DNA from: an uncultured Bacteroidales bacterium
GTDB lineage: Bacteria; Bacteroidota; Bacteroidia; Bacteroidales; JACABE01
Assembly: GCA_903899825.1 (NCBI GenBank)
Contig: CAIUKU010000416.1
Location: forward strand, 1 to 32,967
Direction: 5' to 3'
Length of the DNA: 32,967 bases
The position numbers were made by a program, and so were the translations under genes. Position 1 is the stretch's first letter, and every line of letters begins with the position of its first letter. The notes under the pieces are model-generated. The model was not told the origin of the DNA and did no database searches. It saw nothing but the letters and a program-made list of their open reading frames with translations. This document shows positions 21,328 to 24,843 of the stretch, piece after piece.

Positions 21328-21363
21328 AACCCTGATTTATTTTTTAAAAATCAGGGTTTTTGT
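21328..21363 (+). terminator. Terminator of the OmpA-like gene
   Basis: AACCCTGA (21328-21335) / TCAGGGTT (21351-21358) with additional A/T pairing inside, followed by T-rich sequence, 21 bp after the stop. Confidence 0.8.
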
Positions 21364-21635: not shown

Positions 21636-22274
21636 ATGAAAAAAAATATCTTATTTGTCTGTTTATCTGCTTTTTATATTTTTGTATTGAGTAGCTGCAA
21701 ACATGATTCAACTCCTCCTGTAATCGATGAAAGTGCTATTAAAGATACAGTCTATTTTTATGATGAAGTGCTTCCGATTATACAATCGAACTGTGCAATA
21801 AGTGATTGCCATACCAATGGAGAAGAGGATCCTGATTTAAGTAATTATAGCAACATCCTTAAATTGGTTAAACCAGGTGATCCGCAAAACAGCAGTTTGT
21901 ATAAATATGCGATCGGTAGTGAAATGCCTCCGGCACCTAAAACACCATTAAACTTAGAACAAGTAACATCTATTTATGGTTGGATAAAACAAGGTGCACT
22001 AGCAAATATTGAACCTTGCAATTCATCTGATTCTTCTTTCAATAATGCCGTTTTTCCTATTATAAAAAGAAATTGTCTGGGTTGTCATAATACAGGGAGT
22101 ACTAATGGAGCTTTAACTAATTTTGACGAAATATCTGCCAAAGCAAATACAATATTAAGCAGAATAACAACTCAAAGCGGTTCAATTATGCCACCTTCTC
22201 CTGCAAATCCTTTGTCTGATTGCAAGAAAACCCAAATAACAAACTGGATAAATAAAGGAAAACATAACGATTAA
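21636..22274 (+). CDS. Lipoprotein with two cytochrome c-like heme motifs (CX4CH and CX2CH)
   Basis: 212 residues. Lipoprotein signal with SSC (Cys21). Two tandem copies of a small domain follow: copy 1 (about 38-125) VLPIIQSNC...MPP...WIKQGA, copy 2 (about 126-209) VFPIIKRNC...MPP...WINKG. Copy 2 has a canonical c-type heme site CLGCH (147-151) and candidate axial Met185. Copy 1 has an expanded site CAISDCH (53-59, CX4CH) and candidate axial Met97. The arrangement resembles the planctomycete-type cytochrome C domain common in Bacteroidota surface lipoproteins. First gene of a five-gene unit, 69 bp before the next. Probably an envelope electron carrier; heme occupancy of the CX4CH site is uncertain. 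Confidence 0.8.
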   Translation: MKKNILFVCLSAFYIFVLSSCKHDSTPPVIDESAIKDTVYFYDEVLPIIQSNCAISDCHTNGEEDPDLSNYSNILKLVKPGDPQNSSLYKYAIGSEMPPAPKTPLNLEQVTSIYGWIKQGALANIEPCNSSDSSFNNAVFPIIKRNCLGCHNTGSTNGALTNFDEISAKANTILSRITTQSGSIMPPSPANPLSDCKKTQITNWINKGKHND

Positions 22275-22343
22275 TAAGTTATAATATACCCTAATACAAC
22301 TTTTACAAAACCAATTTCATCCCAATAAAATTATATAAAAAGT

Positions 22344-22712
22344 ATGAAAAAAATATCAATAATTAGTATAACATTATTTGCGGCTATTCTAATTTTTAAT
22401 AGTTGTTACCGGGATTCTGAAGAAGGTCTTTACCGATTTGTTCCACCAAGTTGCGATACAACAAACGTTAGTTTTACGTCAACAGTCAGCCCTATAATAT
22501 CTGCAAACTGTATAAGTTGTCATACAGGAGCCGGAGCTGGTGGTGGGTATCAACTTGATTCCTATGCAGGTGTTAAAGCTATTGCTGATAATGGAAAACT
22601 GGTAAATTCTGTTACTTATGTTTCAAACGGGATGCCTAAATCCGGAAAAATGGATAACTGTAATGTTAATAAGATTGTTGCATGGGTGAATAAAGGAGCC
22701 CTTAATAATTGA
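22344..22712 (+). CDS. Small c-type cytochrome-like lipoprotein
   Basis: 122 residues. Lipoprotein signal with FNSC (Cys21). A single copy of the domain seen twice in the upstream protein: VSPIISANCISCH (48-60, canonical CX2CH heme site), candidate axial Met97 in NGMPKS and the closing helix VNKIVAWVNKGALNN. Two further cysteines, Cys37 (PPSC) and Cys106 (DNCNVNKI), sit at the same relative places as Cys128 and Cys196 of the upstream protein's second domain and may form a disulfide. It lies 23 bp upstream of the OB-fold gene. Probably a mono-heme envelope protein working with its paralogue. Confidence 0.8.
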   Translation: MKKISIISITLFAAILIFNSCYRDSEEGLYRFVPPSCDTTNVSFTSTVSPIISANCISCHTGAGAGGGYQLDSYAGVKAIADNGKLVNSVTYVSNGMPKSGKMDNCNVNKIVAWVNKGALNN

Positions 22713-22735
22713 TTAATATCTAAAATAACGTTAAG

Positions 22736-23206
22736 ATGAAGAATTGGTTAAAATTTTTAATAGTCGCTGTTGTTGTTGGAATTATTACAGTAATTACAGT
22801 ATTGTGGTATATCAATAAACCCAATAAGGATATTGAAAAAGCAACAGCAGAATACACTTTAAATGCGGATGATCTTTATAAACAATATTCTGACAACAAA
22901 GCTATTGCAGATTCATTGTACAATGGAAAAGTAATTGAAATTAACGGAAAAATTTCTATTATTGAAGCACCTTCTGACACTTTTGTAGTTGCAGTATTTA
23001 CTCAAAAACAAGATACAACTCAATTAAAAACTGATGACCTTTTTGGTGATTTAAATGCAGAGGGTGGAATTAGATGTACCATGCTGCAAAATCATTGTGA
23101 AGGGACTAAAAATACAGCTCCCAATTCAGTTGTAAAAATTAAAGGTCTATGCAAAGGAATGCAAGGCACAGATTTAATTTTTGTAAAATGCTCAATTGTA
23201 AAATAA
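22736..23206 (+). CDS. Membrane-anchored OB-fold protein (tRNA_anti-like family)
   Basis: 156 residues. One N-terminal membrane helix (about 5-25) with no lipobox, then a soluble domain on the far side of the membrane. The alternating-strand region from about 40 (TLNADDLYKQYSDN, ADSLYNGKVIEINGKI, VVKIKGLCKGMQG, FVKCSIVK) fits the tRNA_anti-like OB-fold family found in Bacteroidota envelope proteins; despite the name there is no evidence for tRNA binding. Cysteines at 114, 121, 139 and 152 could form disulfides. Third gene of the unit, with 23 bp before and 26 bp after. Function unknown. Confidence 0.7.
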   Translation: MKNWLKFLIVAVVVGIITVITVLWYINKPNKDIEKATAEYTLNADDLYKQYSDNKAIADSLYNGKVIEINGKISIIEAPSDTFVVAVFTQKQDTTQLKTDDLFGDLNAEGGIRCTMLQNHCEGTKNTAPNSVVKIKGLCKGMQGTDLIFVKCSIVK

Positions 23207-23232
23207 TAAATAATCACTTAATATACAATAAT

Positions 23233-23784
23233 ATGAAAACGATTTTAAGATTTGTTACTGTATTTTTAATGCTAACATCGTGTGTTTTTGCACAAAAATA
23301 CATCACTAAAAACGGGAAAATAAATTTCTATTCTGATGCCCCCATGGAAAAAATTGAAGCAAAAAATAATGAAGTAAAAGCAGCATTGGATGCATCTACC
23401 GGAGACATTGTTTTTCAGGTTTTAATTACATCTTTTGAATTTAAACAAGCTTTGATGCAGGAACATTTCAATGAAAATTACATGGAATCACCAAAGTTTC
23501 CCAATTCAACCTTTAAAGGAAAAATCAACAATCTGAAAGATATTAATTTTTCAAAAAATGGCAAATACAATGCAGTGATTGAAGGTGACCTTACCATACA
23601 TGGAGTAACTAAAAAAGTAAAACAAAATGGTAGTCTAGAAGTTAAAGATGCAAAAGTAATTGCTACCAGCAAATTCAATCTTGCTGTTAAAGATTATAAC
23701 ATTAATATTCCAAGTGCTGTTGCAGGAAAAATAGCAGAAAAAGTTCAGGTTACAGTGGACGTAACAATGGATCAAAAAAAATAA
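23233..23784 (+). CDS. YceI family exported protein
   Basis: 183 residues from the ATG at 23233. A longer frame from 23149 overlaps the previous gene and precedes the signal peptide, so it is rejected. The signal peptide (MKTILRF...CVFAQ) is followed by the YceI lipocalin-like barrel: GKINFYSDAPMEKIEA, FQVLITSFEFKQALMQEHFNENYM, SPKFPNSTFKGKI and GDLTIHGVTKKV, all family landmarks. YceI proteins bind polyisoprenoid or other amphiphilic ligands in the periplasm. Here the protein sits between an anchored OB-fold protein and an outer-membrane barrel, suggesting a shared envelope task. Fourth gene of the unit. Confidence 0.92.
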   Translation: MKTILRFVTVFLMLTSCVFAQKYITKNGKINFYSDAPMEKIEAKNNEVKAALDASTGDIVFQVLITSFEFKQALMQEHFNENYMESPKFPNSTFKGKINNLKDINFSKNGKYNAVIEGDLTIHGVTKKVKQNGSLEVKDAKVIATSKFNLAVKDYNINIPSAVAGKIAEKVQVTVDVTMDQKK

Positions 23785-23854
23785 TTAATTAATATTATCC
23801 TTTAAGTCTCCGGCTTTGCCATTACTATCTGTAGACTTATTAAACATATCTGAT

Positions 23855-24742
23855 ATGAAAAAAATTTATTTTCTTTTAATTGTATTTACTGTTGTTTTTG
23901 TAAAGAATTCTTTTTCTCAGGATTTATTGGATGAATTTGGGCCTGATGTTAAAACCAAAGCATTTACTTATGCAACATTCAAAACCTCTCGTATTATAAT
24001 TGGTCAATCCATAGAAAACCCGGCTAAAGGCAATCTTAACTTCAGCATTTCACACCACTTTGGCGCAATAAACGAAGGTAGTTATGGATTTTTTGGCCTT
24101 GATCAATCTACGATTAGAATTGGTCTTGAATATGGCGTTAACAACAGACTTAGCATTGGTTTAGGGCGTAGTTCTTTACAGAAAACATTTGATGGTTTTG
24201 TAAAATATAAAATCGTACGCCAAACCATTGATAACAGCATGCCTGTTTCTGTGTCTTATTTTTGTGACCTTGCAATCAATGGATTACACTTTCCACATCC
24301 TGAATGGAACAATTATTTTTCCTCAAGAATGTCCTTTGTACATCAATTGCTGATTGCCCGTAAATTCAGTAATTCCTTTTCGTTTCAGATAACACCTTCA
24401 CTGGTTCATAAAAATCTGGTTACATTAAATGCCGACCCTAATGATATTGTTACTTTAGGAGGAGGAGGAAGATATAAATTATCTAAACGTATGTCGGTAA
24501 ATGCTGAATACCATTATATTATGTCCAGTGAAACCAGAAAAAACTATGATAATTCACTTTCATTGGGCTTGGATATCGAAACCGGTGGACACGTATTTCA
24601 GCTTTTTGTAACCAACTCACAACCTTTATTTGAAAGAGGTTTTCTTACCGAAACCCAAGGAAGCTGGGGTAAAGGTTATATCTATTTTGGATTCAATATT
24701 GTAAGAACATTTACTATTGTTAAACCCAAAGGTTTTAAATAG
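23855..24742 (+). CDS. DUF5777 family outer-membrane beta-barrel protein
   Basis: 295 residues from the ATG at 23855 (an upstream in-frame ATG at 23816 precedes the signal peptide and is rejected). Signal peptide ends near SFSQ. The mature part has many alternating amphipathic strands and aromatic girdle residues (ISHHFGAINEG, IRIGLEYGVNNRLSIGLGRS, MSVNAEYHYIMS) and a strand-type C-terminus, as expected for an outer-membrane barrel. TSRIIIGQSIEN and the FQLFVTNSQP segment are typical of DUF5777. It closes the five-gene unit (70 bp after YceI) and is followed by a terminator. The role in the unit is unknown; an outer-membrane conduit or anchor is a guess. Confidence 0.82.
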   Translation: MKKIYFLLIVFTVVFVKNSFSQDLLDEFGPDVKTKAFTYATFKTSRIIIGQSIENPAKGNLNFSISHHFGAINEGSYGFFGLDQSTIRIGLEYGVNNRLSIGLGRSSLQKTFDGFVKYKIVRQTIDNSMPVSVSYFCDLAINGLHFPHPEWNNYFSSRMSFVHQLLIARKFSNSFSFQITPSLVHKNLVTLNADPNDIVTLGGGGRYKLSKRMSVNAEYHYIMSSETRKNYDNSLSLGLDIETGGHVFQLFVTNSQPLFERGFLTETQGSWGKGYIYFGFNIVRTFTIVKPKGFK

Positions 24743-24766
24743 GAATTATTTAAAGTCTTTAAATTA

Positions 24767-24803
24767 AAAAATCCTTGTAACTACAATCGTTACAAGGATT
24801 TTT
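24767..24803. terminator. Bidirectional terminator between the DUF5777 and glnS genes
   Basis: Perfect 15-bp inverted repeat (24767-24781 / 24789-24803, core ATCCTTGTAAC/GTTACAAGGAT) with a 7-nt loop, an A run on one side and a T run on the other. It serves the convergent gene pair. Confidence 0.85.
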
Positions 24804-24843
24804 TTATACAGACATTTAGTTTTTCTTAATTCCGGAATAAAAA

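Follow-up and report, generated by a model that had tools for sequence, protein, structure and literature searches.

A DUF5777 barrel with an exchangeable redox lipoprotein as a candidate outer-membrane electron relay in Bacteroidota

A five-gene envelope unit

What joint task might be carried out by five adjacent genes that code for two c-type cytochrome lipoproteins (CytA and CytB), an OB-fold protein (OB), a lipocalin-like YceI protein and a DUF5777 outer-membrane barrel? The question is raised by positions 21636-24742 of a 32,967-nucleotide stretch of DNA from an uncultured Bacteroidales bacterium (contig CAIUKU010000416.1, assembly GCA_903899825.1), the whole of which is called the window below. 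The answer that we favor, with a probability of roughly one half, is that the unit is a redox relay of the outer membrane: an electron-carrier lipoprotein that can be swapped would cooperate with the DUF5777 barrel and, in this organism, be fed by a YceI-bound quinone. We establish here the gene content of the unit, its linkage throughout the phylum, a swap of cofactor type, the predicted folds of its products and their conserved heme-ligand motifs.

A preliminary description of the window had reported five consecutive plus-strand envelope genes with spacers of 23-70 nucleotides (nt) and a shared terminator, all of which is borne out. Specifically, the window sequence and its open reading frame (ORF) listing place five plus-strand ORFs at 21636-24742, in the 5' to 3' order CytA (212 amino acids, aa), CytB (122 aa), OB (156 aa), YceI (183 aa) and DUF5777 (295 aa). 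The intergenic spacers are 69, 23, 26 and 70 nt, given an ATG start at 23233 for YceI and at 23855 for DUF5777. The features are as follows, with structure-model confidence given as the predicted local distance difference test score (pLDDT).

21328..21358, no strand: terminator-like hairpin with perfect 11-nt arms, between an upstream OmpA-family gene and the unit (inverted-repeat search)
21636..22274, plus strand: CytA, predicted diheme c-type cytochrome lipoprotein with CX4CH, CxxCH and lipobox Cys21 (Pfam, conservation)
22344..22712, plus strand: CytB, predicted monoheme c-type cytochrome lipoprotein with lipobox Cys21, CxxCH at 56-60, Met97 and Cys37/Cys106 (Pfam, alignment)
22736..23206, plus strand: OB, OB-fold tRNA_anti-like protein (PF12869) with a single N-terminal membrane helix and without a lipobox (Pfam)
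23233..23784, plus strand: YceI (PF04264), exported and lipocalin-like, predicted 8-stranded fold, pLDDT 90.6 (Pfam, structure model)
23855..24742, plus strand: DUF5777 (PF19089), predicted 12-stranded outer-membrane barrel, pLDDT 89.5 (Pfam, structure model)
24763..24807, no strand: hairpin with 19-nt arms running into a T-run after DUF5777, the shared terminator (inverted-repeat search)

Between the five genes the same search returned only inverted repeats that are AT-only or that overlap as palindromes. Both flanking hairpins are unlisted by a consensus terminator scan, the loop and stem rules of which differ from those of the inverted-repeat search.

Linkage of the unit across Bacteroidota

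DUF5777 is encoded by 19 of 40 relatives and by 153 of 395 sampled Bacteroidota genomes (~39%), and by none of 14 control genomes. Neighborhoods were compared in 190 loci, comprising 109 from the two genome searches, 80 named loci and the window, all annotated by profiles built from the window proteins. Because a profile spanning the two DUF5777 clades proved too diverse to scan contigs with, a YceI-type alignment took its place, and this biases the 80 named loci toward close relatives of the window. Bias is weaker in the 395-genome sample, but the neighborhoods taken from it favor high-scoring matches, with one or a few per genus.

Genes for cytochrome-family lipoproteins (Cyt), YceI or OB account for 490 of the 1385 genes lying within four genes of DUF5777, as compared with 18 of the 704 lying further off, and 485 of these 490 are on the same strand as DUF5777 with five on the opposite strand. 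This linkage is retained through many reshuffled gene orders, the commonest single order being that of the window (diheme, monoheme, OB, YceI, DUF5777), which occurs in 30 loci. Subject to their close-relative bias, the named loci have Cyt, YceI and OB together in 48 of 80 cases and Cyt in 74, while the remaining 110 loci have Cyt in 89, YceI in 75 and OB in 33. Because of these counts the core of the module is a redox lipoprotein plus DUF5777, usually with YceI, and CytA and OB are often added to it; the anchored OB protein, though common in the module, is dispensable. The neighborhood comparison that the preliminary description had proposed thus reveals a phylum-wide linkage and not a set of rarely adjacent genes. 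No fusion joining Cyt, YceI and DUF5777 occurs among the labeled ORFs of the loci, and those long open frames that were inspected as possible fusions turned out to be in-frame upstream sequence.

The electron carrier is swappable

The strongest argument for electron transfer as the conserved job of the unit is a swap of its carrier. In loci that lack a cytochrome, the gene adjoining YceI or DUF5777 often codes for another small electron carrier with a lipoprotein-like signal. As judged by Pfam matches, a Rieske [2Fe-2S] protein takes the place of the cytochrome in loci L104, L116, L122, L131, L152 and L159, and a plastocyanin-type copper protein does so in L151 and L164; L130 and L235 have a Rieske protein alongside a cytochrome-family protein. 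A profile search found Rieske proteins of this type to be absent from genes further away in these loci, which is the only informative part of that search, since the Rieske and cupredoxin profiles were built from those same proteins. The Rieske swap seems to have been repeated, because Rieske-associated tips are scattered over several separate places on the DUF5777 tree.

Additional redox proteins that flank the unit carry tails of the type IX secretion system (T9SS). These include T9SS-tailed cupredoxins (L111:5322-5897 and L115:6907-7494) and T9SS-tailed DOMON proteins (L090:8143-8898 and L140:3763-4512), the latter two loci also carrying an ankyrin-repeat protein. The presence of such proteins suggests a redox partner at the cell surface.

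The cytochrome lipoproteins

The preliminary description had named two CxxCH lipoproteins, and both CytA and CytB do carry CxxCH and a lipobox. CytA is predicted to be a diheme protein, however, with an additional CX4CH motif (residues 53-59) ahead of its CxxCH (residues 147-151), so three hemes are predicted in the whole unit, two in CytA and one in CytB. This motif pair is present in 57 of 57 aligned CytA relatives, which were chosen for having two motifs. CytA matches Cytochrome_CBB3 and PSCyt1 and CytB matches Cytochrome_CBB3 (29 bits versus a cut-off of 27); these matches are modest but above cut-off, whereas the OB, YceI and DUF5777 assignments are clear.

In a 34-sequence alignment of CytB, residues C21, C56, C59, H60 and M97 are invariant together with the Cys37/Cys106 pair, and with its CxxCH, distal Met and lipobox Cys, CytB is predicted to be a class I-type c-type cytochrome lipoprotein. 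A conserved acidic peptide directly follows the lipid Cys (window 22404-22445), reading CYRDSEEGLY here and CYYDNEEDLYP in many relatives, and may be a docking peptide. In the host genome there are a gene for cytochrome c assembly and four matches to heme-copper oxidases, which make both c-type cytochromes and aerobic or facultative respiration plausible in this organism.

YceI and OB

The YceI protein matches PF04264 with 62.6 bits (cut-off 23.7; 7.1e-17), and the 14 best structural matches of its model are all YceI proteins. Against BcnA (5IXH), BcnB (5IXG), E. coli YceI (1Y0G) and TT1927b (1WUB), the model scores Z 16.7-18.1 over the whole mature protein. The window YceI has this predicted fold in common with the isoprenoid-binding lipocalins of the family; unlike the solved proteins, it belongs to a separate Bacteroidota subfamily with a conserved EHFNENYMES-type motif. 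YceI-family proteins have usually been crystallized holding an isoprenoid molecule, and an isoprenoid or ubiquinone-8 is often found (PMC9113575). The ligand of the window YceI is probably an isoprenoid quinone. Menaquinone is the quinone to be expected in Bacteroidota. A YceI-like gene is also induced in a Riemerella iron-limitation RNA-seq table, but could not be placed in the present module. The OB protein matches the tRNA_anti-like family at 1.5e-15.

The DUF5777 barrel

DUF5777 matches PF19089 over the full profile (1-247 of 247) with 317 bits against a cut-off of 23.1 (9.4e-95) and is predicted to be a porin-like barrel. Its best fold likenesses are KdgM (Z 18.0, 2.1 A over 167 residues), FapF, NanC and the COG4313 channel (Z 16.3), with weaker matches to LpxR, OMPLA, FadL and TodX; such likeness by itself shows no function. 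The orientation of side chains was read from strand alternation, not from coordinates. On this basis conserved charges, among them Lys117, Arg206, Glu218, Asp240 and Glu242, point to the lumen, and the three most conserved histidines, which lie in strands 1, 7 and 11, belong to the lipid-facing phase. Invariant phenylalanines also fall in that phase. Two of these histidines are invariant and one is conserved in at least 92% of sequences, and they are kept in both DUF5777 clades at 25-33% identity. Their codons are as follows.

24053-24055: DUF5777 His67
24407-24409: DUF5777 His185
24590-24592: DUF5777 His246

A sister DUF5777 clade with multiheme or NrfD genes

A 26-member DUF5777 clade (support 1.0) is without YceI, as are a few other loci elsewhere on the tree. 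Its members have the same kind of monoheme lipoprotein beside DUF5777 as is seen in the window, together with one of two sets of partners. The first consists of cytochromes with 7, 14, 16 or 19 hemes, some with C-terminal membrane segments. The second, exemplified by L112:2619-10592, consists of an iron-sulfur (FeS) protein (Fer4_11), NrfD, an EB_dh lipoprotein, a hexaheme protein and a cytochrome c, which together form an apparent quinol-to-outer-membrane chain that is undescribed. Since the barrel and its monoheme lipoprotein stay constant while the chain changes, the barrel looks like a shared outer-membrane end piece, and the multiheme clade speaks for its having a respiratory or extracellular role. 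Similar loci with FeS (Fer4_11), NrfD and cytochrome c genes are L094, L110, L118, L124, L137, L143 and L157, where an EB_dh lipoprotein, or a hexaheme lipoprotein containing collagen-like repeats, is often present as well.

The genome of the window itself has a second DUF5777 copy, on another contig (L031; G000:C365:1-5309), that belongs to this YceI-less clade. There, DUF5777 has a monoheme lipoprotein on one side and, on the other, a protein of 927 aa that carries 19 CxxCH motifs and has membrane segments at its C-terminus; a response regulator comes next. The locus is a candidate electron-transfer cluster for the outer membrane of this organism.

A putative outer-membrane redox relay

In the relay that we propose, the core pair would be CytB, as a small electron-carrier lipoprotein, and the DUF5777 barrel, with the periplasmic side served by the YceI lipocalin, the extra diheme lipoprotein CytA and the membrane-anchored OB protein. 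YceI would carry an isoprenoid quinone across the periplasm, electrons would be exchanged between this quinone and the lipid-anchored heme lipoproteins, and they would then pass onward to, or come back from, a partner situated at the outer membrane or further out, either direction being possible. Whether in or at this membrane, the carrier would be held, inserted or exposed by the barrel. The physical complex, the quinone as YceI ligand and the flow of electrons across the outer membrane, with its direction and acceptor, are the parts of this scheme that we infer.

Several observations weigh against this relay. The multiheme association belongs to a different DUF5777 clade from that of the window, and its job may differ. 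The YceI subfamily is divergent, with 11-20% identity to solved YceI structures. Surface lipoproteins of Bacteroidota have a canonical export signal, either K-(D/E)2 near +3 or SDDDD/SDDFE following the lipid Cys. It was not found in CytB, where the peptide is acidic but non-canonical, and given this CytB may face the periplasm only. The one heme of CytB cannot span the membrane, the DUF5777 lumen with its lining of conserved charges may be closed, and 12 strands make a small barrel for holding an inserted cytochrome.

As a more tentative extension, DUF5777 plus a swappable heme, Fe-S or copper lipoprotein might constitute a general Bacteroidota electron outlet at the outer membrane, unlike MtrCAB or Cyc2, with donors that differ between YceI-carried quinone (as in the window) and multiheme or FeS/NrfD chains (as in the sister clade), and with the invariant histidines that strands 1 and 11 turn toward the lipid serving as a docking or quinone site. 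If the relay is real, a very common module that has no name becomes a testable outer-membrane electron-transfer system, and a function is on offer for a large YceI subfamily of debated role.

Comparison with known systems

Cyc2 of iron oxidizers is one fused protein with an N-terminal monoheme domain and a 16-stranded porin (PMC8406198). The window unit is similar in pairing one monoheme c-type cytochrome with one outer-membrane barrel and differs in that its genes are separate, its cytochrome is anchored by lipid and its barrel has 12 strands; with no gene fusion and 12 strands instead of 16, it was rejected as a Cyc2 system. MtrB-type porins have 26 strands that enclose a multiheme cytochrome (PMC8406198). 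Resemblance to such porin-cytochrome conduits (MtrCAB) lies in the combination of a barrel with c-type cytochromes at the outer membrane, and in the sister clade adjoining multiheme cytochromes. Membership was again rejected, as the barrel has 12 strands and no protein of the window unit has more than two hemes.

The BcnA-LcoA pair of Burkholderia cenocepacia consists of a YceI lipocalin and a cytochrome b561 with a proposed role in detoxifying peroxyl radicals and so protecting membranes (PMC9113575). The window unit likewise encodes YceI beside an envelope redox protein, and in both the YceI ligand is probably an isoprenoid quinone. The partner here is a c-type, Rieske or copper lipoprotein and not an inner-membrane cytochrome b561, which is absent from the five genes and from the annotated neighbors of the unit, and an outer-membrane barrel is always present. 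By its gene content the unit would be a variant of outer-membrane redox systems that stands outside Cyc2, MtrCAB and BcnA-LcoA. Neither a mention of DUF5777 nor a description of this gene combination was found in the open literature searched, a search that excluded subscription journals and preprints.

Alternative explanations

The main rival, which we regard as possible though rather doubtful, is an antioxidant module. Here the heme, Rieske or copper lipoproteins would re-reduce a YceI-held quinol that acts in the outer membrane as a quencher of lipid peroxyl radicals, with DUF5777 as a lipid-facing platform or a channel for oxidized lipids. The resemblance to BcnA-LcoA, whose mutants show lipid-peroxidation phenotypes (PMC9113575), fits this idea, as do the lipid-facing His and Phe residues of DUF5777 and the lipid enzymes OMPLA and LpxR among its fold matches. 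The YceI version is also found in genera that include Hymenobacter, Pontibacter and Rufibacter, which are aerobes. However, the unit is without cytochrome b561, no catalase or peroxidase partner turned up in the recurrent neighbor clusters, and the multiheme/NrfD clade and the T9SS-tailed redox proteins are left unexplained.

It is unlikely that the unit transports a hydrophobic compound, with a lipid-like or aromatic molecule passing through DUF5777 as its channel, YceI as its periplasmic carrier and the redox lipoproteins modifying or sensing the cargo. Isoprenoids are indeed bound by YceI proteins (PMC9113575), and the fold matches of DUF5777 include channels for small molecules, COG4313 among them and, at lower similarity, FadL and TodX, but a porin-like match is something that many barrels show, the multiheme clade dispenses with YceI, and no catabolic gene recurs beside the unit among the neighbor clusters.

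The preliminary description had proposed an outer-envelope module for either redox/quinone or heme handling. Its redox/quinone half is upheld by the conserved neighborhood, the isoprenoid-binding YceI fold and the DUF5777 paralogs with multiheme and NrfD genes. Heme or porphyrin handling, in which the CxxCH lipoproteins would receive or pass heme and DUF5777 would be an outer-membrane gate, is now very improbable: heme-attachment motifs do occur in two of the five genes, but CxxCH means covalently bound heme, which together with the conserved Met ligand is what electron carriers typically show, the neighbor clusters have no TonB-dependent receptor as a recurrent member of the unit, and replacement by Rieske or copper proteins weakens the idea because it fits an electron carrier and not heme trafficking. 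That the genes are a chance run without joint function is hardly credible, for although all products are exported or anchored and Bacteroidota are rich in such clusters, the linkage is phylum-wide despite reshuffled order and with near-perfect strand agreement.

Other genes beside the unit

An ankyrin/catalase link in some Flavobacteriia is only a lead. Regulatory genes recur by the unit in some lineages, specifically LytTR-type response regulators, often with a histidine kinase, in 16 loci (for example L117, L196, L211 and L232), and extracytoplasmic function (ECF)-type sigma factors in 14 loci (for example L101, L128, L142 and L151). Crp/Fnr-type regulators occur near the multiheme version.

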